A DNA stretch of 64,000 nucleotides from Ornithinimicrobium cerasi (GTDB lineage Bacteria; Actinomycetota; Actinomycetes; Actinomycetales; Dermatophilaceae): assembly GCF_003702705.1 (NCBI RefSeq), contig NZ_QZMN01000005.1, positions 223,151 to 287,150 on the forward strand, given 5' to 3'. A model generated the notes under the pieces. That model made no database searches. It was given only the letters and a program-made list of their open reading frames with translations, and was not told where the DNA came from. The translations under genes were made by a program, and so were the position numbers. Positions within the stretch are counted from its first letter, which is position 1, and every line of letters begins with the position of its first letter. Of the stretch, positions 363 through 15,227 are shown piece by piece.

Positions 363-2354
<1,992 letters not shown>

Positions 2355-2361
2355 ACCCCCG

Positions 2362-2430
2362 ACTCACAGGCACGAATCCTGCGGGCAGGTGCATGCATCA
2401 GCCCGGGACAGGGGGTTCGTGCCTGTGAGT
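2362..2430 (+). terminator. Nested inverted repeat after acs, probable terminator
   Basis: A perfect 15-bp inverted repeat, ACTCACAGGCACGAA (2362-2376) and its complement (2416-2430), extended inward by wobble and GC pairs, encloses a second hairpin CGGGC (2382-2386)/GCCCG (2401-2405) with a TGCATGCA loop palindrome. It begins 8 bases after the acs stop. There is no T-tract, as is common for actinobacterial terminators. The same structure could be a cruciform or small repeat element. Confidence 0.55.
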
Positions 2431-2431
2431 G

Positions 2432-2490
2432 CGGGGGTGGGGGTCGATCGGGGGTGGCGGGTGGGGCGGCGATCGGGGGTGGGGGGTGGG
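2432..2490 (+). repeat. G-rich tract with 13-bp direct repeat
   Basis: Between the acs hairpin and the NRPS start lies a run of G-blocks of 3-6 bases. CGATCGGGGGTGG occurs at 2445-2457 and again at 2470-2482. The spacing of G-runs fits the pattern for an intramolecular G-quadruplex on the plus strand. An open frame crosses it but codes only Gly/Trp-rich low-complexity sequence, so it is taken as non-coding. Confidence 0.6.
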
Positions 2491-2518
2491 CGTTGAGGCG
2501 GCGGCCGGGCGGGTGCGC

Positions 2519-2524
2519 CAGACT
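2519..2524 (+). promoter_or_regulatory. Putative -10 for leaderless NRPS start
   Basis: CAGACT lies exactly 6 bases before GTG 2531. It differs by one base from TAGACT found at other starts in this window with the same spacing. This placement would make the transcript start at or next to the GTG, and no Shine-Dalgarno sequence precedes it. Confidence 0.35.
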
Positions 2525-2530
2525 CTGCTC

Positions 2531-5500
2531 GTGACCCGGCCCGTGCACCCCGTCCCGGCGTCGCTGCTCGCCGGCGACCGGGCGGCAGCGCGACGGACGC
2601 TCGTGGACGTCATCGGGCGCAGCGTGCAGGAGACGCCCGACGCCCTCGCGGTCGACAGCGGGGTCCGGACGCTGACCTACGCCGAGCTCGACGCCGTCGC
2701 GGGTCAGCTCGCCGCGCGGCTGGCCGAGCACGGCATCGGGCGCGGCGCGCGCGTCGGGGTCCGGGTCAGGTCGGGCACCACCGACCTCTACGCCGCCATC
2801 CTCGGCGTCCTCTACGCCGGCGCGGCCTACGTCCCCGTCGACGCCGACGACCCCGACGAGCGGGCACGCGTCGTCTTCGCCGAGTCGCAGGTGGCCGCGG
2901 TGGTGGGCAACGACCTGGCTCTCAGCCCCCGCCCCGGTGCTCCGACGGGGACCCCGGGCGAGGGGCCCACGGTGGACGACGACGCCTGGGTGATCTTCAC
3001 CTCCGGCTCCACGGGCACCCCCAAGGGCGTGGCCGTCAGCCACCGCAGCGCCGCCGCCTTCGTCGACGCCGAGTCGCGGCTCTTCCTCGCCGACGGCGAG
3101 CCGATCGGACCGGGGGACCGGGTGATGGCCGGGCTGTCGGTCGCCTTCGACGCCAGCTGCGAGGAGATGTGGCTGGCGTGGGCGCACGGCGCCTGCCTCG
3201 TCCCGGCACCGCGGTCGCTCGTGCGCGCCGGGGTCGACGTCGGGCCGTGGCTGGTCGCCAACGACATCACCGTCGTCTCCACGGTGCCGACGCTGGTGGC
3301 CCTCTGGCCGCCGGCCAGCCTTGAGCAGGTGCGGCTGCTGATCCTGGGCGGGGAGGCCTGCCCGCCGGAGCTCGCGGCCCGGCTGCAGGCACCCGGCCGC
3401 GAGGTGTGGAACACCTACGGCCCGACGGAGGCCACCGTCGTCGCCTGCGCCGCGGTCCTGGACGGCACCGACCCGGTCCGGATCGGGCTGCCGCTGGACG
3501 GCTGGGACCTGGCCGTCGTGGACGAGCACGGTCGGCCGGTGCCCGAGGGGGCCTCCGGTCAGCTGATCATCGGCGGCGTCGGGCTGGCCCGCTACCTCGA
3601 CCCGGCCAAGGACGCCGAGATGTACGCCCCGATGCCGACGCTGGGGTGGGACCGCGCCTATCGCTCGGGGGACGTCGTCGTCAACGACCCGGCGGGGCTG
3701 CTCTTCGCCGGGCGGGCCGACGACCAGATCAAGCTGGGTGGCCGCCGGATCGAGCTCGGGGAGATCGACGGGCAGCTGCTCCGGCTGCCCGGGGTCGCCG
3801 GAGCCGCCGCGGCCGTGCGCCGCACCGCCTCGGGCAACCAGCTGCTCGTCGGCTACCTCGCGGTGGACGCCACCTACGACGCCGACACGGCCCTGACCCT
3901 CCTGCGCGAGCGCATGCCGGCCGCTCTCGTCCCCCGGCTGGCCGTCGTCGAGGACCTGCCCACCCGCACGTCGGGCAAGATCGACCGCGACGCCCTGCCC
4001 TGGCCGTTGCCCTCCACCCGTACCGCCGCGCCCTCCGGCCTGACGCCGCTGCAGAGCTGGGTCGGGGAGATCTGGCACGACGTCCTGGGCGCCGACGTCA
4101 CCTCGCCCAAGGACGACTTCTTCGACCTCGGCGGTGGCTCGCTGACGGCGGCGCAGGCCGTGGGCCGGCTCCGCGAGCGCTTCCCGGAGGTCGCCGTCGG
4201 GGACCTCTACGCCAACCCGCGGGTCGGCGCGCTCGCGGTGGTCCTCGAGCAGCTCGGTGGCGGCCCGGCCCGGCTGGACCGCACGGTCGCCCCCATCCGG
4301 CCGCGGACGCAGGTCGGCCAGGTGCTGGCGCTGCTGCCGCTGCGCACGCTGGCGGCGGGCCGGTGGGTGGCGTGGCTGCTGCTCGCCTCCGCGCTGCTGC
4401 ACGGGCGACCCGGGTTCGGCTGGGCGGTGGACGTCCCGGGGTCCGTCGCGCTGCTCACCGCCGTCCTCTTCCTCGTCCCGCCGGTCCGGATGGGCCTGGC
4501 CGCCCTCCTCGTCCGCGTCGTGCTGCGCGGTGTGGGCCCCGGCACCTACCCGCGGGGCGGCCGGGTTCACCTGCGCCTGTGGCTGGCCTCCCGGATCCAG
4601 GACGAGCTCGCAGCGGTGTCGACCGCCGGCGCGCCCTGGCTGCAGCGCTACGCCCGCAGCCTCGGCGCCGACATCGCCCCCGGTGCCGACCTGCACGCGC
4701 TCCCACCGGTCACCGGCCTGCTCACCCTCGGTCGGCGGTCCGCGGTCGAGCCCGAGGTCGACCTCGGTGGGTTCTGGATCGACGGCGACCGGCTGCACGT
4801 GGGCCGGGTCCGCGTGGGCGAGCAGGCCCGTGTCGGCGCGCGCAGCATGCTCGGTCCCGGGGCCGAGGTCGCACCCGGGGCCGAGGTCGCACCCGGCTCC
4901 CTGGTGCTCGGGCGGGTCCCGCCGGGTGAGTACTGGTCGGGCTCGCCCGCCGAGCGCAGCTCCGACGGGGCCCGCAGCGCCTGGACCGAGGAGGAGCCGC
5001 CACCCGGGCGGCTCTGGTGGATCGGGTATGCCGTCTCCGCCCTCCTCGTCGCCGCGCTCCCCGTGCTCGCGGTCCTCGCCGGCGGGGCGCTCGTGGTGCG
5101 CCTCGGCTGGGCGTGGCTGCCGCTCGCCGCCCTCTTCGGGTATGTCGTGCTCGCCGCGCTCGTCCTGGTGCTGGTCCGGGTCTGCTCCCTGTGGGTGACC
5201 CCGGGCCACCACCCGACCCGCTCGGCCAGGGGCCTGGCCGTGTGGACCACGGTCCGGGTCCTCGACGAGGCCCGCACCTGGCTCTTCCCCCTCTACTCCG
5301 CCGCGTTCACGCCCGTCTGGCTCCGCCTCCTGGGCGCCCGGGTCGGCCGCGGCGTCGAGGCCTCGACGGTGCTGCTCATCCCGCGGCTGGCGCACGTCAA
5401 CGACCACGCCTTCCTCGCCGACGACACCCTCATCGGCTGCTACGAGCTGTCCCGGGGCTGGATGCGGGTCGAGCGGGTCAAGGTCGGCAAGCGCGCGTTC

Positions 5501-6385
5501 GTCGGCAACTCCGGGATGGTCTCCGCCGGCCGCAAGGTCCCCAAGGAGTCGCTCGTCGCCGTCCTCTCGGCCGCCCCGCGCCGCAAGAAGGTCAGGGCCG
5601 GCACCTCCTGGCTCGGCAGCCCGCCGACCCGGCTGCGGCGGGCGGCCAGCACGGTCGACCCGGGCCGGACCTACGACCCGCCGACCCGGCTCAAGGTCTA
5701 CCGGGGGCTGCTGGAGACCGGCCGCCTCGTCCCCCTGCTGCTCACGGTGCTGCTCCACCTCGGGGTCGCGGTCGCCCTGCTCGCGCTGCTGCGCGTGCAC
5801 GTCCTCGTGGGCCTCGCCCTCGGCGGCGTGGTGCTGATCCTGGCCGGGGTGGTCGCCGCCCTGCTGACCTGGGCGGCCAAGTGGGCGCTCGTGGGGCGGC
5901 ACACGTCCGGGGACCACCCGCTGTGGTCCGGGTTCGTGTGGCGCAACGAGCTGGCCGACACCTTCACCGAGGTGCTCGCCGCGCCGTGGTTCGCCTCGGT
6001 CACCCAGGGCACCGTCGTGCTCAACGTCTGGCTGCGGATGCTCGGGGCGAAGATCGGGCGCGGGGTGTGGTGCGACAGCTACTGGCTGCCCGAGACCGAC
6101 CTCGTCGAGCTGCGCGACGGGTCCACGGTCAACCACGGGTGCGTGGTGCAGACCCACCTGTTCCACGACCGGGTGCTGAGCATGGACACCGTCACCCTGC
6201 AGCTGGGTGCGACCCTGGGACCCAACAGCGTCATCCTGCCGGCCGCGACGATCGGCCGGCACGCCACGGTGGGACCGGTCTCGCTCGTCATGCGCGGCGA
6301 GTCGGTGCCCTCCCAGACGCGGTGGCTCGGCAACCCGATCGGGCCCTGGGACGACGACCCGACCACGACGAAGGAGCGCCGGTGA
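2531..6385 (+). CDS. Pls/PosA-type NRPS: A-T module with six-TM C-terminal region
   Basis: About 1284 residues from GTG 2531; an earlier GTG at 2429 would add only G-rich low-complexity sequence. Order: adenylation domain (about 25-490) with TSGSTGTPKG, N-T-Y-G-P-T-E, G-R-x-D-D-Q-I-K and TSGKIDRDALP; carrier domain (500-575) with DLGGGSLTA, Ser537 being the phosphopantetheine site; then about 680 residues with three pairs of membrane helices (about 610-660, 827-890, 1066-1115) and left-handed beta-helix hexapeptide stretches, including a tandem GAEVAP repeat. This is the layout of epsilon-poly-lysine synthetase and its relatives: no condensation or thioesterase domain. Aligning to PheA gives pocket residues D-A-E-S-I-G-T-V-V-K, close to the lysine code I recall. 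A membrane-bound homopolymer or short-chain synthase is inferred. It overlaps the M1 peptidase by GTGA. Confidence 0.87.
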   Translation: MTRPVHPVPASLLAGDRAAARRTLVDVIGRSVQETPDALAVDSGVRTLTYAELDAVAGQLAARLAEHGIGRGARVGVRVRSGTTDLYAAILGVLYAGAAYVPVDADDPDERARVVFAESQVAAVVGNDLALSPRPGAPTGTPGEGPTVDDDAWVIFTSGSTGTPKGVAVSHRSAAAFVDAESRLFLADGEPIGPGDRVMAGLSVAFDASCEEMWLAWAHGACLVPAPRSLVRAGVDVGPWLVANDITVVSTVPTLVALWPPASLEQVRLLILGGEACPPELAARLQAPGREVWNTYGPTEATVVACAAVLDGTDPVRIGLPLDGWDLAVVDEHGRPVPEGASGQLIIGGVGLARYLDPAKDAEMYAPMPTLGWDRAYRSGDVVVNDPAGLLFAGRADDQIKLGGRRIELGEIDGQLLRLPGVAGAAAAVRRTASGNQLLVGYLAVDATYDADTALTLLRERMPAALVPRLAVVEDLPTRTSGKIDRDALPWPLPSTRTAAPSGLTPLQSWVGEIWHDVLGADVTSPKDDFFDLGGGSLTAAQAVGRLRERFPEVAVGDLYANPRVGALAVVLEQLGGGPARLDRTVAPIRPRTQVGQVLALLPLRTLAAGRWVAWLLLASALLHGRPGFGWAVDVPGSVALLTAVLFLVPPVRMGLAALLVRVVLRGVGPGTYPRGGRVHLRLWLASRIQDELAAVSTAGAPWLQRYARSLGADIAPGADLHALPPVTGLLTLGRRSAVEPEVDLGGFWIDGDRLHVGRVRVGEQARVGARSMLGPGAEVAPGAEVAPGSLVLGRVPPGEYWSGSPAERSSDGARSAWTEEEPPPGRLWWIGYAVSALLVAALPVLAVLAGGALVVRLGWAWLPLAALFGYVVLAALVLVLVRVCSLWVTPGHHPTRSARGLAVWTTVRVLDEARTWLFPLYSAAFTPVWLRLLGARVGRGVEASTVLLIPRLAHVNDHAFLADDTLIGCYELSRGWMRVERVKVGKRAFVGNSGMVSAGRKVPKESLVAVLSAAPRRKKVRAGTSWLGSPPTRLRRAASTVDPGRTYDPPTRLKVYRGLLETGRLVPLLLTVLLHLGVAVALLALLRVHVLVGLALGGVVLILAGVVAALLTWAAKWALVGRHTSGDHPLWSGFVWRNELADTFTEVLAAPWFASVTQGTVVLNVWLRMLGAKIGRGVWCDSYWLPETDLVELRDGSTVNHGCVVQTHLFHDRVLSMDTVTLQLGATLGPNSVILPAATIGRHATVGPVSLVMRGESVPSQTRWLGNPIGPWDDDPTTTKERR

Positions 6386-7680
6386 AGGGTGCCGACCCCT
6401 ACGTGCCCGGGCACGGGGACCTCAGCTACGACGTGCTCCACCACGACCTCACCCTCGACTACTCGGTGGTGAGCAACCGCCTCGAGGGCGAGGCCGTGCT
6501 GCGCTGCCGCGCGGTGGCACGCCTCACCGAGCTGCGGCTGGACCTGCGGCTGCGCGCCGACAAGGTCAGCGTGGGGGGCCGCCCGCCCCGTCGGTTCCGG
6601 GTCGCCGACGGCAAGCTGGTCATCACCCTCGTCGAACCCGTCGAGCCGGGTTCCGAGCTGAGCGTGCGGATCCGCTACTCGGGCAACCCGCGCCCCCTCG
6701 CCAAGAGGGGACTCGACGCGGCCGGGTGGGAGGAGCTGGAGGACGGCGTCATCGTCGCCTCCCAGCCGCACGGGGCCCCGAGCTGGTTCCCCTGCAACGA
6801 CCGGCCGTCGTCCCGCTCGACCTACCGGCTGACCCTCACCACCTCCGCGGACTACCACGTCGAGTTCAGCGGGGAGCCGGTCAGCGTCCGCCGTGGCGGG
6901 GCCACCCGGACCTGGAGCTTCCGCCAGGACCGGCCGATCGCGCCCTACCTCGCGACGGTCCAGATCGGCCGCTACCAGGTGAGCACCCAGAAGGCCGTGG
7001 TGCCCATACGGGTGGTCGGGCCGCCCGGCATCAGGGGCAACGGCTTCTCCGCCTCCTTCGGCCGGCAGCCGGCGATGATGGCCTACTTCGTCGAGGCGTT
7101 CGGGCCCTACCCGTTCGACTCCTACACCTGCGTCATCACCGCGGACGACCTCGAGATCCCCCTGGAGTCGGCGGCGCTGTCGACCTTCGGGCGCAACTTC
7201 GCCTCCGCCGACTGGGACAGCGTGCGGCTCGTCGCCCACGAGATGGCGCACCAGTGGTTCGGCAACGCCGTGACCGTCGCGTCCTGGCGGGACATCTGGT
7301 TGCACGAGGGGTTCGCCTGCTACGCCGAGTGGCTGTGGTCGGAGGAGTCGGGCAGACGGACCGCGGACGCGTGGGCCCGGCACCACCACGGGTTGCTGGC
7401 CGGGGGCCACCACCAGCCCGCCCCCCTCGTGGACCCCACCGTCCGGCACATGTTCGACGACTGGGTCTACAAGCGGGGCGCGCTCACCCTCCACGCCCTG
7501 CGCCGGGAGGTGGGCGACGCGACCTTCTTCACCATCCTGCGCTCCTGGGTCGCCGGCCACCGGTGGGAGAGCGTCACCACCGCGCAGTTCGTCGCGCACT
7601 GCGCCGACGTCGCCGGCCGGGACCTGGCACCGCTGCTCGCGCCGTGGCTGCACTCGCGGGACCTGCCACACCTGACCTGA
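6382..7680 (+). CDS. M1 family zinc aminopeptidase
   Basis: 432 residues, the short actinobacterial form of the M1 family (full-length PepN is about 850). The zinc motif is H286-E287-M-A-H290 with the third ligand E309 after 18 residues (L-H-E-G). The GAMEN exopeptidase loop is replaced by I-P-L-E-S, keeping the glutamate that anchors a free N-terminus. No signal peptide or membrane helix is seen. Start GTG 6382 overlaps the NRPS stop (GTGA), so the two are translationally coupled. In this context it may trim or degrade the NRPS product; a zinc exopeptidase that degrades poly-lysine is known from producers. A general dipeptide role cannot be excluded. Confidence 0.88.
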   Translation: MKGADPYVPGHGDLSYDVLHHDLTLDYSVVSNRLEGEAVLRCRAVARLTELRLDLRLRADKVSVGGRPPRRFRVADGKLVITLVEPVEPGSELSVRIRYSGNPRPLAKRGLDAAGWEELEDGVIVASQPHGAPSWFPCNDRPSSRSTYRLTLTTSADYHVEFSGEPVSVRRGGATRTWSFRQDRPIAPYLATVQIGRYQVSTQKAVVPIRVVGPPGIRGNGFSASFGRQPAMMAYFVEAFGPYPFDSYTCVITADDLEIPLESAALSTFGRNFASADWDSVRLVAHEMAHQWFGNAVTVASWRDIWLHEGFACYAEWLWSEESGRRTADAWARHHHGLLAGGHHQPAPLVDPTVRHMFDDWVYKRGALTLHALRREVGDATFFTILRSWVAGHRWESVTTAQFVAHCADVAGRDLAPLLAPWLHSRDLPHLT

Positions 7681-7704
7681 GCGTGACGTGAGGGGCCCTG
7701 AGGA

Positions 7705-8346
7705 TCAGTGCGGCGCGGCGAGCACCGCGACGAGCCCGGGCGGTGCGGGCAGGTCGGTCAGCCCCGACTCCTCGGCGAGCCGCACGTGGGTCATCGGGGT
7801 CGCCAGTCCGGTCCCGCGTCGTTTGAGCACAGCCTCCTTGGCGGCCCAGCACCGTGCCCGCGCCCTGTCGTCCCTCGCCGCCCCCGGGTCTGCCTCCCCG
7901 TCCGCCGACGCGCCCGCCGACCCGTCCACCGACTCCCCGTCCGCCAGGACCACCGCGTCCGACCAGCCGTGCGCGACGTCCTGGACCACCTCGGCGTCCA
8001 CGCCGACCGGACCGCGCAGGGAGACCGCGGTGACGACATACCCCCCGGCCCTGGCGAGGGAGACCCACACCTCGCGGGGTCGGGTATGCCGTATCCCGGT
8101 CCCCGACCCGTTGCCGGCGCCCACCCCGGCCCGCCGGTCCCGCGCGTGCGTGGCCCACGGTCGGCCGTGCAGGTCCGAGCCGCAGCCGGGGCAGAGCCGC
8201 CCGACGGTCACGACCCCCGGGCCCAGCACGGCGAGGACGTGCCGGCGCAGCAGGGTGTCCACCTGCTCGTCCCCCGACGCGCCGTCGTGCCAGGCGACGG
8301 CCGGGGTCTCCTGCGGGGCGGACACGGGCGACTCAGCCTGCCGCAC
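7705..8346 (-). CDS. 4'-phosphopantetheinyl transferase (Sfp type)
   Basis: 213 residues. The two family motifs are present: G-V-D-A-E (115-119) with the Mg-binding Asp and Glu, and C-W-A-A-K-E-A-V-L-K (166-175). An N-terminal C-P-G-C (52-55) followed by H-G-R-P is also common in actinobacterial members. Between the motifs sits an unusual Gly/Ala/Asp-rich insert (about 136-160). It transfers phosphopantetheine from CoA to carrier-protein serines, and the obvious client is Ser537 of the convergent NRPS only 24 bases away from the peptidase end. GTG 8346 overlaps the end of metB by 14 bases; GTG 8325 is an equally possible start. Confidence 0.85.
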   Translation of the reverse strand: MRQAESPVSAPQETPAVAWHDGASGDEQVDTLLRRHVLAVLGPGVVTVGRLCPGCGSDLHGRPWATHARDRRAGVGAGNGSGTGIRHTRPREVWVSLARAGGYVVTAVSLRGPVGVDAEVVQDVAHGWSDAVVLADGESVDGSAGASADGEADPGAARDDRARARCWAAKEAVLKRRGTGLATPMTHVRLAEESGLTDLPAPPGLVAVLAAPH

Positions 8347-9541
8347 GCCCCGGCAGCGGCAGGGGCGTCGTGGTGGCCGCAGCCGCCCGGTCGAGGGCGG
8401 CCCGGACGTCGGCCCGCAGGTCGTCCGGGTGCTCGATGCCGACGGAGAGCCGGAGCAGACCGTCGCCGATCCCCGCGACAGCGCGGGCCTCCGGCGTCAT
8501 GGAGGCGTGCGTCATCGTGGCCGGGTGGGCGACGAGGCTCTCCGTGCCGCCGAGCGACTCGGCCAGGCTGAAGCAGACCAGCCCGTCGACGAACGCACGC
8601 ACCGCGGCCTCACCCCCGACGAGGTCGAGGGAGAGCATCGAGCCGAACCCGTCCTGCTGCCGGGCCGCGACCTCGTGCCCGGGGTGGGTGGGCAGGCTGG
8701 GGTGGTGGACGGCGGCCACGGCGGGGTGGTCGAGCACCTCGGCGAGCACCGCGTCGGCGTTCTCCTCGTGGGCTCGCAGACGCGTGTGCAGGGTGCGCAG
8801 GCCGCGCAGGGTGAGGTAGGCGTCGAACGGGCTCCCGACCAGCCCCAGCACGTTGGCCAGGTCCTGCAGCTGCTCGTGCTGCTCGGGGGTGCGGGCCACC
8901 ACGGCGCCGCCGACGACGTCGCTGTGGCCGTTGATGAACTTCGTCGTCGAGTGCACGACGAGGTCGGCGCCGTGCTCGAGCGGGCGCTGCAGCGCGGGGG
9001 AGAGAAAGGTGTTGTCGACCACGACGGTGGCGCCCGCGGCGTGCGCCGCGGTCGAGACCGCGGCGAGGTCGGTGATGCGCAGCAGGGGGTTCGACGGGGT
9101 CTCCACCCAGACGACCGTCGGCGGCTCCGGGCCGTCCAGCTCGGCCGTCAGCGCGGCCGCGTCACCCAGGTCGACGGTGCGGTAGCGCAGGTGGCCCCGC
9201 GCAGCCAGGGTGTCGAAGAGCCGCCAGGTCCCGCCGTAGCAGTCGTGGGGGATGAGGACGGTGTCCCCCGGCGTGAGGAGGAGGGAGGTGGTGAGCGTGA
9301 TCGCGGCGAGGCCGGTGGGCGTGACGGTGGCCCCGTGGCCGCCCTCCAGGGTGGCGAGCGCCTCGCCGAGCACGTCGCGTGTGGGGTTGCCGCAGCGGCT
9401 GTAGTCGTAACGCCGGGGCTGGTCGAAGCCGGTGAAGCTGTAGGTCGTCGACAGGTACAGGGGCGGGACGATGGCGCCCTCGCCGGGGTCGGTGTCGATG
9501 CCCGCGCGGACGCCGCGCGTGAGCCGGGTGGTCTCGGTCAT
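8333..9541 (-). CDS. metB: Cystathionine gamma-synthase/lyase family PLP enzyme
   Basis: 402 residues from ATG 9541, which has GAGGG 5-9 bases upstream; the open frame extends 39 codons further but without SD or family similarity. Fold-type I PLP enzyme: Y-S-R-C-G-N-P-T-R near residue 50, V-V-D-N-T-F at 174-179, and the Schiff-base lysine K201 in S-T-T-K-F-I-N-G-H-S-D. The C-terminal S-L-G-G-T-E-S-L-V-x-H-P-A and S-V-G-I-E-H-x-x-D-L blocks are typical of this family. Synthase and lyase cannot be told apart by eye; actinobacterial genes of this form are usually called metB (O-acyl-homoserine plus cysteine to cystathionine). Confidence 0.88.
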   Translation of the reverse strand: MTETTRLTRGVRAGIDTDPGEGAIVPPLYLSTTYSFTGFDQPRRYDYSRCGNPTRDVLGEALATLEGGHGATVTPTGLAAITLTTSLLLTPGDTVLIPHDCYGGTWRLFDTLAARGHLRYRTVDLGDAAALTAELDGPEPPTVVWVETPSNPLLRITDLAAVSTAAHAAGATVVVDNTFLSPALQRPLEHGADLVVHSTTKFINGHSDVVGGAVVARTPEQHEQLQDLANVLGLVGSPFDAYLTLRGLRTLHTRLRAHEENADAVLAEVLDHPAVAAVHHPSLPTHPGHEVAARQQDGFGSMLSLDLVGGEAAVRAFVDGLVCFSLAESLGGTESLVAHPATMTHASMTPEARAVAGIGDGLLRLSVGIEHPDDLRADVRAALDRAAAATTTPLPLPGRAAG

Positions 9542-9609
9542 GTCGCCCTCTGCCTGGGTGGTCCGGAGACCCGGGGCGCGTGCGTCGGTCACGGCCCGGG
9601 AGTGGCCCG

Positions 9610-9615
9610 AAACTA
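9610..9615 (-). promoter_or_regulatory. Possible metB -10 box
   Basis: TAGTTT read on the minus strand (9615 to 9610) would give a leader of about 60 bases ahead of metB. The leader has a short GC hairpin (GGGCCACTCCCGGGCC) but I see no conserved S-adenosylmethionine riboswitch core. No good -35. Confidence 0.25.
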
Positions 9616-9709
9616 GCATGCTGACGAACGAAGTGCGTCCCGCATCAGGTCGAGACATCCGTCACCGAAGAACCTGCGTCAGGGAGGGTTTCGGCGCGAG
9701 GGATCTGCC

Positions 9710-10147
9710 TCAGGCCTCGTCGGGGATCATGTGCCGCCAGGGACGAGCCAGGTGGAACTCCCGCCCGCTGAGCTCGGCCACGTGGATCGCGACCACGTTG
9801 AACTTCTCGGAGCTGATCCAGGGACGCAGCCGCAGGTTGTCGGTGTCGCGGGCGTCCTGGCCCTCGAGGATGTGGGCCTTGCCGCGCGCGATGACGCTCC
9901 AGGCGGCCTCGTCCTCGTCGTCGATCCGGTCGATCTCGAACGCGACGTCCTCGTTCATCACGACGCCGAGCAGCTTGGAGCCCTCCGCCGTGCGGAAGAT
10001 GATCTTCCCGTCGGCGACCGCGTAGTTGACCGGGGCGATGTGCACCTCGTCGGCGAGGTGGTAGGCCATCCGTCCGATCTCGGTCGCGTCGAGCCGCGCC
10101 CAGCACTCCTCCTCGGACAGGACCTGCATGGGGCGTGCCTCAGACAT
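9710..10147 (-). CDS. Pyridoxamine 5'-phosphate oxidase family protein
   Basis: 145 residues. Split-barrel flavin-binding fold of the small PNPOx-like family: C-W-x-x-L-x-x-x-x-I-G-R-M-A near the N-terminus, V-N-Y-A-V, I-I-F-R-T-A-E-G-S-K-L, V-A-F-E-I-D and W-S-V-I-A-R-G-K-A. Proteins of this size bind FMN, F420 or heme-type ligands; none has the catalytic residues of true PNP oxidase, so the substrate is unknown. Start ATG 10147 has GGGAGAGG upstream. It stands alone, divergent from the formate dehydrogenase operon. Confidence 0.8.
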   Translation of the reverse strand: MSEARPMQVLSEEECWARLDATEIGRMAYHLADEVHIAPVNYAVADGKIIFRTAEGSKLLGVVMNEDVAFEIDRIDDEDEAAWSVIARGKAHILEGQDARDTDNLRLRPWISSEKFNVVAIHVAELSGREFHLARPWRHMIPDEA

Positions 10148-10214
10148 GGTGTCGCCTCTCCCGTGAGCTGGTCGCCCCAGTCTATGACAGGACGTCGTAG
10201 TGCTGCCCGTCGGA

Positions 10215-10233
10215 CCCCAGCCCTATGCTGGGG
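10215..10233 (+). promoter_or_regulatory. 7-bp hairpin over a -10-like element before formate dehydrogenase
   Basis: CCCCAGC-CCTAT-GCTGGGG is a perfect 7-bp inverted repeat with a 5-base loop, 35 bases before GTG 10268. TATGCT inside it matches a -10 box, so the dyad could be an operator covering the promoter, or a hairpin at the 5' end of the message. Confidence 0.4.
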
Positions 10234-10267
10234 GGACCGGCGACCGGCGACAAGGAGGTTGGCGTCC

Positions 10268-10699
10268 GTGACCCCATCGGCGAGGGAGCTGGCGGCTGCC
10301 CGGGCTCACGAGCGCGGCCCGCTGCTGGAGATCCTGCACGACGTCCTGGACGCGCGGGGGTGGATCAGCGAGCAGGACGTCCGGGAGGTCGCGGACGTCC
10401 TCAACCTGTCCGTGGCCGAGGTGCACGGGGTGGTGAGCTTCTACTCCGACCTGCGCCGCACGCCGCCCCCGGCCCACACGGTGCGGGTCTGCCGGGCCGA
10501 GGCGTGCCAGTCCGTCGGTGCCGAGACCCTGCACCGCGAGGCGGTGGCGGCCCTGTCCGGGCAGGAGGGGGTCGAGGTGCACGAGGTCTTCTGCTTCGGC
10601 AACTGCGCGCTGGGGCCGAGCGTGGAGGTGGACGGCACGCTCCGGGGACGGATGACCATCGAACGGCTGCTGGCTGAGGCAGGAGGGTGGACGTCGTGA
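10268..10699 (+). CDS. fdsG: NAD-dependent formate dehydrogenase, gamma subunit (NuoE-like)
   Basis: 143 residues from GTG 10268, with AAGGAGG 9 bases upstream. Thioredoxin-like [2Fe-2S] protein of the NuoE/FdsG family: the four cluster cysteines are in V-C-R-A-E-A-C-Q and C-F-G-N-C-A-L-G-P. The N-terminal helical part (L-L-E-I-L-H-D-V-L, V-S-F-Y-S-D-L) is family-typical. It carries electrons next to the flavin of the beta subunit. Its stop overlaps the start of the beta-subunit gene (GTGA). Confidence 0.92.
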   Translation: MTPSARELAAARAHERGPLLEILHDVLDARGWISEQDVREVADVLNLSVAEVHGVVSFYSDLRRTPPPAHTVRVCRAEACQSVGAETLHREAVAALSGQEGVEVHEVFCFGNCALGPSVEVDGTLRGRMTIERLLAEAGGWTS

Positions 10700-12249
10700 C
10701 CACGACCGTGTGGGTGCCGCGTGACAGCTCCGCGCGCGCCGTCGGGGCCGACGAGGTCGCCTCGGCGCTGGCCGCGGTCGAGGGTGTGACGGTGCGGCGC
10801 AACGGGACCCGGGGGATGCTCTGGCGTGAGCCGCTCGTGGAGGTGGAGACCGACCGGGGGCGTGTCGGCTACGCCGGCGTGGAGGCTCCCGCCGTGCCGG
10901 AGCTGGTGGCGCAGGGGCTGCTGGAGGGGGCGGACCTGGCGTGCGGGATCGGGGTGGTGGACGACGACCCGTGGCTCACCGGCCAGGAACGGGTCACCTG
11001 CTCCAGGCTCGGGCTCGCCGAGCCGACCGACATCGAGGCGTATGCCGCGCGCGGCGGCTGGGAGGGCCTGCGCCGGGCCGCGGTGCTCGAGCCGGCCCAG
11101 GTCGTCGAGGAGGTCATCACCTCGGGGCTGCGGGGGCGCGGGGGAGCCGGTTTCCCCACGGGCATCAAGTGGCGCACGGTCCTGGAGGCCCGGCAGGGCG
11201 GCGCACCGCAGGCCTTCGTGGCCTGCAACCTCGACGAGGGCGACTCCGGGACCTTCGCCGACCGCATCCTCGCCGAGGGCGACCCGTTCACGCTGCTGGA
11301 GGGCATGACCGTCGCCGCGCTGGCCGTCGGGGCGACCGAGGGTTACATCTACTGCCGCAGCGAGTACCCCGACGCCGTCGCCACCCTGCGGGAGGCGATC
11401 GCCGTCGCGCAGGAGTTCGGCTACCTCGGCGACGTGCTCGGCACCGGCCGCCACTTCGACGTCGTGGTCCGCGAGGGCGCCGGCGCCTACATCTGCGGCG
11501 AGGAGACCTCGATGCTGGAGTCTCTCGAGGGCCGTCGGGGGGAGGTGCGTGCCAAGCCGCCGATCCCCGCGCTGTCCGGGCTCTGGGGCGCTCCGACGGT
11601 CGTCAACAACGTGCTGACGTTCGCCGCCGTGCCGATGATCCTCGCCGGGGGCGGTCAGGCCTACGCGGACCTCGGCACCGGCCGCTCGCGGGGCACGCAG
11701 CTGTTCCAGCTGGCCGGCAACGTCGCCCGCGGCGGGCTCGTCGAGCTGTCCTTCGGGGTGACGCTGCGCCAGCTCGTCGAGGACTGGGGCGGGGGGACCC
11801 TCAGCGGCCGCCCGGTCCGCGCCGTGCAGTGCGGCGGTCCCCTCGGGGCCTACCTGCCCGCCGACCGGCTCGACGTGCCGATGGACTACGAGGCGCTGGC
11901 GGAGGCCGGCGGCATGCTCGGTCACGGCGGCATCGTCGTCTTCGACGAGTCGTTCGACGCCGCCCGGATGGCCCGCTTCGCGATGGAGTTCTGCGCCGCC
12001 GAGTCGTGCGGGAAGTGCACCCCCTGCCGCGTCGGGTCCACGCGTGGGGTCGAGACCATCGACCGACTCTGCGGCGCTTCTGCGGACGGTCCCGACGGCA
12101 CCGGGCGGACGCAGCTGCTCGTGCTGCTCGAGGACCTCTGCGAGACGATGACGAAGGGGTCCCTGTGCGCGCTCGGCGGACTCACGCCGCTCCCCGTCCG
12201 GAGCGCCCTCGAGCACTTCCCGGAGGACTTCGAGAGGAGCCGGTCATGA
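10696..12249 (+). CDS. fdsB: NAD-dependent formate dehydrogenase, beta subunit (NuoF-like)
   Basis: 517 residues from GTG 10696 (SD AGGAGG at 10681-10686). The NADH/FMN domain carries G-L-R-G-R-G-G-A-G-F-P-T-G-x-K-W and A-C-N-x-D-E-G-D-S-G-T-F, and G-A-G-A-Y-I-C-G-E-E-T. The N3-type [4Fe-4S] ligands are C438, C441 and C444 in E-S-C-G-K-C-T-P-C-R plus a later Cys in S-L-C-A-L-G-G. A region of about 120 residues ahead of this resembles the degenerate thioredoxin-like extension of FdsB proteins. It reduces NAD+ with electrons from formate. Overlaps both neighbours by four bases, so the operon is tightly coupled. Confidence 0.93.
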   Translation: MTTTVWVPRDSSARAVGADEVASALAAVEGVTVRRNGTRGMLWREPLVEVETDRGRVGYAGVEAPAVPELVAQGLLEGADLACGIGVVDDDPWLTGQERVTCSRLGLAEPTDIEAYAARGGWEGLRRAAVLEPAQVVEEVITSGLRGRGGAGFPTGIKWRTVLEARQGGAPQAFVACNLDEGDSGTFADRILAEGDPFTLLEGMTVAALAVGATEGYIYCRSEYPDAVATLREAIAVAQEFGYLGDVLGTGRHFDVVVREGAGAYICGEETSMLESLEGRRGEVRAKPPIPALSGLWGAPTVVNNVLTFAAVPMILAGGGQAYADLGTGRSRGTQLFQLAGNVARGGLVELSFGVTLRQLVEDWGGGTLSGRPVRAVQCGGPLGAYLPADRLDVPMDYEALAEAGGMLGHGGIVVFDESFDAARMARFAMEFCAAESCGKCTPCRVGSTRGVETIDRLCGASADGPDGTGRTQLLVLLEDLCETMTKGSLCALGGLTPLPVRSALEHFPEDFERSRS

Positions 12250-15227
12250 CCGTCCCGCCCCCGACGATGCTCGCCCAGCAGGTGGCCGCGCTCGGTGACG
12301 ACGCCCAGCGCCACCCCGACCCGACGGGCACGCCATACCTGCCGGAGCCCGACCTGGGGACCCCCCGGGTGGAGGGGACCGCCGAGGTCACCGTGAGCGT
12401 CGACGGGCGCGAGGTCGTCGTGCCGGGCGGCACGTCGGTGCTGCGCGCGGCGCGCGAGGCGGGGGTCGACGTGCCGAGCCTGTGCGCCACCGACTCGCTG
12501 CGCGCGTTCGGGTCGTGCCGCCTCTGCCTGGTCGAGGTGGAGGGGGGCAAGGGGGTGCCGGCCTCGTGCACGACCCCGTGCGCCGACGGCATGGTGGTGC
12601 GCACGGACACCGAGCAGGTGCAGCGGCTGCGTCGCGGCGTGATGGAGCTGTACCTCACGGACCACCCCGTCGACTGTCCCGGCTGCGCCCGCGGCACCTG
12701 CGAGATCCAGGCGCTCGCCCGGCGAACGGGCGTGGCGGAGGTGCGCTACGGGTTGCCGGCCGCGGGGTCGGGGCCCGCCTCCCGCGTGGACGGCGGTGCG
12801 TCCCGCGACACCACGAACCCCTACTTCGACTACGACCCCCAGGCGTGCATCGTCTGCTCGCGCTGCGTGCGCGCCTGCGCCGACGTCCAGGGCACCTTCG
12901 CGCTGACGGTCGAGGGGCGCGGTCTCGCATCCCGGATCGCCCCGGGGCCGACGGAGTTCATCGCGTCCGAGTGCGTCTCGTGCGGCGCGTGCGTGCAGGC
13001 GTGCCCGACGGAGGCCCTGGTGGAGAAGTCCCTCGTGCAGCTCGGTATGCCGACGCGCGCCGTGGAGACGACGTGCGCCTACTGCGGGGTGGGCTGCACC
13101 TTCCGTGCCGAGGTGCAGGGTGCCGCCGAGGAGACCAGGGTGGTCCGGATGACGCCGCTGAAGGCCGGTGGCGCCAACGAGGGGCACTCGTGCGTCAAGG
13201 GCCGGTTCGCCTACGGCTACGCCGCGCACGACGACCGGCAGCTGCGGCCGATGGTGCGCGAGAGCATCGAGGACGAGTGGCGGGTGGTCTCCTGGGAGGA
13301 GGCGATCGGCCGGGTCGCGGAGGGGTTCCGCGGGATCCAGGAGAGGCACGGCGTGGGGGCCGTGGGCGGCATCTCCTCCTCCCGGTGCACCAACGAGGAG
13401 GTCTACGTCGTCCAGAAGATGGTGCGGGCGGCGTTCGGCAACAACAACATCGACACCTGTGCGCGGGTGTGCCACAGCCCGACGGGGTACGGCCTGAACC
13501 AGACGTTCGGCACCTCGGCGGGCACCCAGGACTTCGAGTCGGTGGACCACACGGACGTGATGCTGCTCATCGGTGCCAACCCCACCGACGCCCACCCGGT
13601 CTTCGGGTCGCGGATGAAGCAGCGGCTGCGCAAGGGCGCCCAGATCATCGTCGCCGACCCGCGTCGGATAGACCTCGTGCGGTCCCCGCACGTCCAGGCC
13701 GCGCACCACCTGCCCCTGCTGCCGGGGTCCAACGTCGCGTTCATCAACGCGATGGCGCACGTGGTGGTCACCGAGGGCCTGCACGACGAGGAGTTCCTCC
13801 GTGACCGGTGCGAGGACGTGGACGCCTACCTGGAGTTCGCGCGGGACGAGGGCAACAGCCCGGAGGCGACGGCCGAGGCGACCGGGCTGGACCCGGAGCA
13901 GCTGCGCGCGGCGGCGCGGTTGTACGCCAGCGCGCCGAACGCCTCGATCTACTACGGCCTCGGCGTCACCGAGCACAGCCAGGGCTCCACGATGGTGATG
14001 GGTCTGGCGAACCTCGCGATGCTCACCGGCAACATCGGCCGCAGGGGGGTGGGCGTCAACCCGCTGCGCGGGCAGAACAACGTGCAGGGGTCCTGCGACA
14101 TGGGCTCCTTCCCGCACGAGCTCCCGGGTTACCGGCACATCTCCCGCCCCGAGGTGCGGGCGATCTACGAGGACCTCTGGCAGGTGCGGCTCGACCCCGA
14201 GCCCGGCCTGCGCATCCCCAACATGTTCGACGCCGCGCTCGGCGGGACGTTCAGGGGACTCTTCGTGCACGGGGAGGACATCGCGCAGTCGGACCCGAAC
14301 CTCCAGCACGTGCGGGCCGCGCTGTCGGCGATGGAGCTCGTCGTGGTGCAGGACCTCTTCCTCAACGAGACCGCCCGCTACGCCCACGTGTTCCTGCCGG
14401 GCAGCAGCTTCCTGGAGAAGGACGGGACGTTCACCAACGCCGAGCGCCGGCTCGGGCGGGTCCGTCCGATCATGCCGTCCAAGGTCGGCAAGGACGAGTG
14501 GCAGATCGTCTGCGAGATCGCCACCGCGATGGGCTTCCCCATGTCCTACGGCTCGGCGTCGCAGATCATGGACGAGATCGCCGCGACCACCCCGACCTTC
14601 GCCGGGGTGAGCTTCGAGCGGCTGGACCGCGAGGGCTCGATGCAGTGGCCCGTCAACGAGGCGGCGCCGAGCGGCACGCCGACCATGCACGTGGAGGAGT
14701 TCGTGCGCGGCCGGGGCCGGCTCGTCCCGACGGTGTTCGTGCCGACCACCGAGCGCACCAACCGCCGGTTCCCGCTCATCCTCACCACCGGCCGGATCCT
14801 CACCCAGTACAACGTCGGTGCCCAGACCCGGCGGACCGCCAACTCGACGTGGCACCCGGAGGACGTGCTGGAGATCCATCCCAGCGACGCCGAGCTGCGC
14901 GGGATCCGCAGCGGCGACACGGTCGAGCTGTCGAGCCGGGTCGGGACCACCGCCCTCACCGCGCTGGTCTCGGACCGGATGCAGCCCGGCGTGGTCTACA
15001 CGACCTTCCACCACCCCGTCACCGGCGCCAACGTCGTCACGACCGAGAACTCCGACTGGGCGACCAACTGCCCCGAGTACAAGGTGACCGCGGTCCAGGT
15101 CGCGGTGGCCAACGCCCGGGAGGGGCGGCATACCGACGGGCGTGCTGGCCGCGACCTGGGCGTGAGTGACGCGCATGAGCCGATCGACCCGGCGGTGCCC
15201 TTCAGCGTGGCGGGGTCAGGGCGATGA
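12246..15227 (+). CDS. fdsA: NAD-dependent formate dehydrogenase, alpha (catalytic) subunit
   Basis: 993 residues, ATG 12246 overlapping the beta stop (ATGA). N-terminal plant-type [2Fe-2S] domain (about 45-115, C-A-T-D-x-L-x-x-F-G-S-C-R-L-C), the Cys-His NuoG-like cluster (H-P-V-D-C-P-G-C), two [4Fe-4S] ferredoxin motifs (C-I-V-C-S-R-C-V-R-A-C and C-V-S-C-G-A-C-V-Q-A-C), a further [4Fe-4S] site C-A-Y-C-G-V-G-C, then the molybdopterin domains. The metal ligand is Cys409 in A-R-V-C-H-S-P, so no selenocysteine. Oxidises formate to CO2 in the cytoplasm with a bis-MGD molybdenum or tungsten cofactor. The FdhD sulfurtransferase it needs is not in the window. Confidence 0.95.
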   Translation: MTVPPPTMLAQQVAALGDDAQRHPDPTGTPYLPEPDLGTPRVEGTAEVTVSVDGREVVVPGGTSVLRAAREAGVDVPSLCATDSLRAFGSCRLCLVEVEGGKGVPASCTTPCADGMVVRTDTEQVQRLRRGVMELYLTDHPVDCPGCARGTCEIQALARRTGVAEVRYGLPAAGSGPASRVDGGASRDTTNPYFDYDPQACIVCSRCVRACADVQGTFALTVEGRGLASRIAPGPTEFIASECVSCGACVQACPTEALVEKSLVQLGMPTRAVETTCAYCGVGCTFRAEVQGAAEETRVVRMTPLKAGGANEGHSCVKGRFAYGYAAHDDRQLRPMVRESIEDEWRVVSWEEAIGRVAEGFRGIQERHGVGAVGGISSSRCTNEEVYVVQKMVRAAFGNNNIDTCARVCHSPTGYGLNQTFGTSAGTQDFESVDHTDVMLLIGANPTDAHPVFGSRMKQRLRKGAQIIVADPRRIDLVRSPHVQAAHHLPLLPGSNVAFINAMAHVVVTEGLHDEEFLRDRCEDVDAYLEFARDEGNSPEATAEATGLDPEQLRAAARLYASAPNASIYYGLGVTEHSQGSTMVMGLANLAMLTGNIGRRGVGVNPLRGQNNVQGSCDMGSFPHELPGYRHISRPEVRAIYEDLWQVRLDPEPGLRIPNMFDAALGGTFRGLFVHGEDIAQSDPNLQHVRAALSAMELVVVQDLFLNETARYAHVFLPGSSFLEKDGTFTNAERRLGRVRPIMPSKVGKDEWQIVCEIATAMGFPMSYGSASQIMDEIAATTPTFAGVSFERLDREGSMQWPVNEAAPSGTPTMHVEEFVRGRGRLVPTVFVPTTERTNRRFPLILTTGRILTQYNVGAQTRRTANSTWHPEDVLEIHPSDAELRGIRSGDTVELSSRVGTTALTALVSDRMQPGVVYTTFHHPVTGANVVTTENSDWATNCPEYKVTAVQVAVANAREGRHTDGRAGRDLGVSDAHEPIDPAVPFSVAGSGR

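Follow-up and report, generated by a model that had tools for sequence, protein, structure and literature searches.

Introduction

Epsilon-poly-L-lysine is a known food preservative, and its synthetase, Pls, belongs with PosA to a family of nonribosomal peptide synthetases (NRPSs). In Streptomyces albulus, the peptidase gene pldII belongs to the same operon as pls and overlaps it by 4 bp (PMC4361855); it is translationally coupled, and upon its repression polymer tolerance falls (PMC9223678). Outside Streptomyces, Pls of Corynebacterium variabile, whose gene was expressed from the S. albulus pls promoter in S. coelicolor M145, has been shown to make epsilon-poly-lysine, with homologues in eight coryneform genera (PMC8117764), and pls clusters have been predicted in three cleanroom actinobacteria (PMC12067966). 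Other family members use other diamino acids, among them Acinetobacter baumannii PosA, a delta-poly-L-ornithine synthetase, and position 2 of the adenylation pocket has been proposed to set substrate length (Ala for lysine, Met for ornithine, Phe for diaminopropionate or diaminobutyrate), a proposal supported by a mutant (PMC10522769). Here, a pls gene is described at positions 2531 to 6385 of a 64,000-nt stretch of Ornithinimicrobium cerasi DNA (the window; contig NZ_QZMN01000005.1, positions 223,151 to 287,150). An earlier note on this DNA, made from its letters and open reading frames, had proposed a Pls-like synthetase of lysine type, naming neither the coupled peptidase gene nor the phosphopantetheinyl transferase (PPTase) candidate described below. 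The locus is very probably an ordinary pls–pldII operon for epsilon-poly-L-lysine, because a synthetase with Pls identity and an M1 peptidase gene overlap by 4 bp as in S. albulus.

Results

Family membership and architecture of the synthetase

The pls frame is open throughout, begins with GTG, and has a third-position GC of 0.97, with 0.98 and 0.97 in the flanking genes. Its product scored 635 bits against TIGR02353, the NCBIfam model of the Pls/PosA family (cut-off 423), the terminal domain covering model positions 3 to 695 of 695, and Pfam returned AMP-binding, PP-binding, and hexapeptide repeat matches. The top-scoring PDB chain was 7WEW (about 629–631 bits; runner-up chain 375), which is named epsilon-poly-L-lysine synthase and is presumably the S. 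albulus enzyme. The protein is thus one module of adenylation (A) domain, thiolation (T) domain, and TIGR02353 terminal domain, without a classical condensation or thioesterase domain. The attachment site for phosphopantetheine in the T domain is Ser537 (nt 4139). Ser occupies this column in all 109 aligned rows, of which 7WEW must be discounted, its chain stopping short of the site and its final residue having been put in the column by the aligner. Hydropathy revealed three hydrophobic regions, each of which fits a helix pair, and an AlphaFold model of residues 575 to 1284 (pLDDT 82.8, pTM 0.88) places paired helices at those regions between three strand-rich domains. Six transmembrane (TM) segments around three tandem domains (C1 to C3) are therefore predicted, and the A-T-six-TM-three-domain layout that had been proposed from the letters alone is borne out by Pfam, TIGR02353, hydropathy, and the model. 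Structure comparison matched an acetyltransferase-like fold for C2 and C3, while the fold of C1 was barely probed. All features are collected in Table 1.

Table 1. Features of the pls locus and its surroundings, in window positions.
Feature	Positions	Strand	Evidence or remark
Inverted repeat, imperfect (24-nt arms with 88% complementarity, 33-nt spacer)	2356..2436		between acetate-CoA ligase gene and pls
pls, 1284 aa, single-module NRPS of the Pls/PosA family, predicted to be an epsilon-poly-L-lysine synthetase	2531..6385	+	TIGR02353, 7WEW match, code, tree
Adenylation domain, residues 1-495	2531..4015	+	PF00501 206.8 bits; alignment to 1AMU and 7WEW
Thiolation (carrier) domain, residues 510-569	4058..4237	+	PF00550 43.8 bits
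TM1-TM2, residues 629-665	4415..4525	+	hydropathy; helices in AlphaFold model
C1 domain, hexapeptide-repeat type	4526..5011	+	PF00132 39.0 bits, residues 760-793
TM3-TM4, residues 828-892	5012..5206	+	hydropathy; helices in AlphaFold model
C2 domain, hexapeptide acyltransferase-like fold	5207..5716	+	
TM5-TM6, residues 1063-1122	5717..5896	+	hydropathy; helices in AlphaFold model
C3 domain, hexapeptide acyltransferase-like fold, with Q1207, H1209, and D1213 conserved	5897..6382	+	
pldII-like M1 zinc peptidase, 432 aa	6382..7680	+	PF01433 97.1 bits, PF17900 34.4 bits; motif
Sfp-type 4'-phosphopantetheinyl transferase candidate, convergent with peptidase	7705..8346	-	PF01648 27.5 bits
Cystathionine gamma-synthase family gene	8333..9658	-	TIGR02080 above its cut-off
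NAD-dependent formate dehydrogenase-like operon	9731..15227	+	gamma-type (2Fe-2S), NuoF-like, molybdopterin subunits

Adenylation pocket and phylogeny

To extract the pocket, the sequence was aligned with MAFFT to residues 234 to 335 of PheA (1AMU), whose letters agreed with the PDB chain at 102 of 102 positions; the last pocket residue was assigned as the Lys of the RTSGKIDR motif, which lies outside the PheA fragment. The residues D207, A208, E211, S250, I271, G273, T295, V303, V304, and K483 spell DAESIGTVVK, identical to the code earlier read by eye, so that proper alignment did not move the pocket to another amino acid class. All 10 pocket residues are identical in 7WEW, with which the A domain shares 63% identity over 487 aligned positions. 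As a method control, the A. baumannii row returned DMEHNGTVSK, the code printed for PosA (PMC10522769), indicating that the pocket read-out works. Two diaminobutyrate-type rows from Streptomycetaceae (L087 and L089) read DFECLSAVTK. At position 2 the window synthetase carries Ala208, neither the Met of the PosA type nor the Phe of the diaminobutyrate/diaminopropionate type, and at position 3 Glu. Another NRPS A domain of the same genome (L002), the sole complete code among its other A domains, reads DARSHGLINK.

The tree comprised 109 rows, namely the window, 7WEW, 80 close relatives (the best 80 of 591, such that counts out of 80 describe close relatives rather than the whole family), six plasmid-collection records, and eight same-genus and 13 same-phylum homologues. 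With a limit of 1e-30, a homologue was recovered from 22 of the loci L092 to L135, and 21 entered the tree once the window's own copy (L100) was left out. The tree is of a quick type with SH-aLRT support and a midpoint root, 7WEW fills 37% of its columns, and one flagged long-branch pair (L019 and L032) does not adjoin the window. DAESIGTVVK is read in 104 of the 109 rows, window and 7WEW included, and a branch of length 1.66 with support 100 separates all of these from the remaining five, which read DMEHNGTVSK, DLEDIGTVVK, DFECLSAVTK (twice), and DFECLSVVTK. Within the Pls group, 7WEW and the annotated Streptomyces pls fall together, while the window groups with its own genus and then with Nocardioides and Intrasporangiaceae rows. 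The phylogeny that had been suggested as a check accordingly places the window with 7WEW and outside any clade of other-substrate enzymes. That an unrelated NRPS acquired a lysine code by chance, a reading to which we accord practically no credence, is refuted by the whole-length TIGR02353 match, by this conservation of the code, and by the conserved peptidase neighbor described below.

The nearest named record is Ornithinimicrobium cavernae (77% in the best segment), to which one row of the window's genus (G002) stands at zero distance. TIGR02353 scored above its cut-off in nine of 32 genomes of the genus, in 14 of 296 of the phylum sample (the window's genome included in both), and in one of 14 control genomes; matches below the cut-off, present in most genomes, are by our reading other hexapeptide-repeat proteins. 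Second TIGR02353 matches, most above the cut-off and in shorter frames of 829 to 919 aa, occur in genomes that also hold Pls (G192:C5, G159:C1, G039:C14, and G039:C1). Matches above the cut-off in G192 (C5), G159 (in second place), and G039 (C14) were left out of the tree, and L155 (from G039) and L156 (from G192) served in neighbor scans only. The genome G022, of the window's genus, holds a divergent Pls/PosA-family synthetase (L092/L153) with the diaminopropionate/diaminobutyrate-like code DFECLSVVTK, with no M1 peptidase, dat, or ask homologue within the 15.5 kb examined, and possibly makes another cationic polymer.

Coupled peptidase gene and substrate

The start of the pldII-like gene and the stop of pls share 4 bp (GTGA), and the peptidase carries the zinc motif HEMAH...WLHE with a third ligand Glu. 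All 80 relatives have an M1 homologue downstream of pls on the same strand. Its stop-to-stop frame opens no more than 100 nt beyond the stop codon of pls in 76 of them and at 268, 430, 527, and 2068 nt in the remaining four; the exact 4-bp overlap recurs in 47. An M1 homologue also stands beside pls in all 13 phylum rows and in seven of the eight further rows from the genus, and a Streptomyces gene annotated as pls shows the same gene order and overlap as the window. Within the stretches examined, no M1 peptidase was found beside the PosA-type, the two diaminobutyrate-type, the rhizobial, or the G022 rows. The PosA-type row (L088) shares family and architecture with the window but differs in its code, in an identity of only ∼33–36% in the A-domain region, and in its position on the other side of the tree; the 6.9 kb examined, which end ∼0.8 kb past the gene, hold no M1 peptidase. 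Likewise, diaminobutyrate/diaminopropionate polymer synthetases share family and architecture, whereas L087 and L089 differ from the window in code and in having dat and ask, in place of an M1 peptidase, adjoining the synthetase gene (in one annotated as diaminobutyrate transaminase and aspartate kinase, in the other recognized by homologues). A Pfam scan of eight genes of the window, from 363 to 15227, detected no aspartate kinase and no dat-type aminotransferase.

These observations bear on the possibility that the enzyme is a Pls homologue activating another diamino acid (ornithine, diaminobutyrate, or beta-lysine) and making a different cationic polymer. Such substrates are known in the family, a Phe-type divergent homologue exists in the same genus, and the specificities lie close together, since a single Met-to-Ala change raised the efficiency of PosA on lysine nearly 10-fold (PMC10522769). 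The reading is nevertheless very unlikely, given Ala at position 2 in a pocket matching 7WEW throughout, the place of the window on the Pls side of the tree, the adjoining M1 peptidase, and the lack of aspartate kinase and dat-type genes in the scanned neighborhood. The earlier prediction of lysine (or ornithine/diaminobutyrate) is accordingly narrowed by the sequence evidence to lysine, with ornithine and diaminobutyrate less likely.

Some findings weigh against an assignment to an ordinary epsilon-poly-L-lysine operon. The exact overlap is absent in 33 of the 80 relatives; a row from Streptantibioticus cattleyicolor pSCAT (L090) reads DAESIGTVVK and lies on the Pls side of the tree with no M1 peptidase in the stretch examined; and weak dat-like matches (162 to 198 bits, compared to 702 to 1051 in the diaminobutyrate-type rows) flank the Pls relatives L043, L052, and L085. 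The TIGR02353 score of the window is the lowest among the nine above-cut-off genomes of its genus, and the terminal domain shares just 46% identity with L086 and 53% with L081, the two named Streptomyces rows, so that chain length could differ. Finally, C. variabile itself gave no detectable polymer, showing that a native pls operon can be silent (PMC8117764).

Three points favor a lysine-activating Pls that makes short oligomers only, or is silent, with a role other than secretion of an antimicrobial polymer: C. variabile has a working enzyme and no polymer in culture, conservation is lower in the terminal half than in the A domain, and the gene is patchy in the genus. Against this stand all three C domains and helix pairs, which are intact, the C domains being free of deletion (median fill 161/162 for C1, 168/170 for C2, and 153/153 for C3), and 37 terminal-domain residues shared by the four non-Pls rows compared and by 98% or more of the 103 Pls rows. 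We consider a short-oligomer or silent Pls quite improbable and retain the epsilon-poly-L-lysine operon as the preferred assignment.

A convergent phosphopantetheinyl transferase candidate

The PF01648 score of the PPTase candidate barely exceeds the cut-off of 25. Its residues D116, W166, E170, and K174 (numbered from nt 8343) are invariant in 24 aligned candidate rows, and the conserved Asp and W...KE...K residues form what we take to be the Sfp-type PPTase motif. PF01648 matches 17 of these 24 candidates at E ≤ 0.001 and misses seven. An iterated profile located a candidate in 23 of the 80 relatives, and each of these 23 has it immediately after the peptidase gene, on the opposite strand. 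The distribution follows taxonomy, all 23 being among the 31 Micrococcales/Propionibacteriales and none among 44 Mycobacteriales and five others. Order labels were taken from record names and the tree, by which L018 was placed with Micrococcales/Propionibacteriales and L073 and L080 with Mycobacteriales; L027 was counted as Mycobacteriales despite its tree label of Cyanobacteriota. At least 1200 bp past the peptidase gene were available in 77 of the 80 loci; L016 has little downstream room.

Within the genus, the candidate is present in the window, G019, and G030 and absent beside pls in G002, G005, G007, G017 (a genome 75% complete), and G031, each of which holds another long-frame PF01648 match (247–387 aa) elsewhere. 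In G019 and G030, the candidate is the only PF01648 match besides one 168-aa, AcpS-sized frame, short matches being called AcpS by frame length alone; a second, divergent PPTase is possible there, as PF01648 misses seven of 24 candidates. The window's genome holds a further PF01648 gene beside a 4303-aa NRPS frame (G000:C51, about 255000 to 264211).

This distribution fits a dedicated Pls-activating enzyme, though it is not proof of one. We tentatively propose that Micrococcales/Propionibacteriales may carry a self-sufficient cassette of pls, pldII, and a dedicated convergent PPTase that primes Pls, a cassette that would work and spread in AcpS-only hosts, while lineages with a general Sfp/PptT-type enzyme carry pls–pldII alone; this model is a real possibility, which we stop short of favoring. 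The candidate frame also overlaps the end of the same-strand upstream cystathionine gamma-synthase gene by 14 nt, and because of this shared strand and overlap the two may be transcribed together; no homologue of this cystathionine gamma-synthase neighbor was found in the 80 relatives. Genes listed downstream of the annotated Streptomyces pls (L086) carry labels other than PPTase. No report linking a PPTase gene to pls–pldII was found in the accessible open-access text, where the PPTase mention in the available part of PMC4361855 is a genome-wide enrichment remark.

Other surroundings of the locus

The inverted repeat upstream of pls could act as an operator or terminate transcription of the preceding gene. 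Positions 2200 to 8400, scanned for consensus promoters and terminators, yielded neither. A functional link of pls to the flanking acetate-CoA ligase (ACS) or formate dehydrogenase genes was judged unlikely from the neighborhoods of its relatives. ACS matches occur in 27 of the 80, the 25 listed scoring at most 104 bits and most being the A domain of pls itself, and formate dehydrogenase beta-subunit matches in two of 80, with gamma and alpha in none. Weighing against this rejection, the surroundings of pls in three genomes of the same genus (G019, G030, and G031) include an ACS matching at full strength (1340 to 1392 bits), a homologue of the gamma subunit (126 to 133 bits), and weak matches to alpha, which by our reading reflect a chromosomal location shared among nearest relatives.

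Discussion

The window shares with S. albulus Pls/PldII the A-T-terminal-domain architecture, the pocket DAESIGTVVK, and a peptidase gene joined through the 4-bp overlap (PMC4361855), and differs from it in the divergence of its A domain, in its host, and in the convergent PPTase candidate. With C. variabile Pls, likened here by its published description rather than by sequence, it shares a non-Streptomyces actinobacterial host, the layout, a peptidase-gene operon, and a lysine-type pocket (PMC8117764). The earlier expectation of a lysine homopolymer synthetase in a non-Streptomyces actinobacterium is thus supported by pocket, tree, TIGR02353, and peptidase, and is less surprising with a coryneform Pls already published.

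We infer substrate, product, linkage, and the peptidase's role from characterized relatives. By analogy with these, the A domain would activate L-lysine with ATP and load it onto Ser537 of the T domain. Priming of that domain by a PPTase has to come first, and in our own reading this PPTase is possibly the product of 7705–8346. The membrane-embedded terminal domain, with its three acetyltransferase-like C domains between three TM helix pairs, would then join lysines iteratively through their epsilon-amino groups and release the chain at the membrane, and the coupled M1 peptidase would trim or degrade the polymer and so protect the cell.

No report of epsilon-poly-lysine in Ornithinimicrobium was found in the open-access literature searched, and the PPTase candidate beside pls–pldII is the one addition for which that literature, in its accessible text, yielded no precedent. 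If the candidate primes Pls, it would be a part to include when moving the pathway into hosts where Pls alone failed, such as C. glutamicum, in which Pls protein was detected and no polymer (PMC8117764). The locus is otherwise a well-known system in a less usual host, Pls outside Streptomyces being already in print. It would add Ornithinimicrobium as a host genus to a commercially used antimicrobial polymer pathway, one whose pairing of synthetase and peptidase genes extends to all 80 of the close relatives compared.

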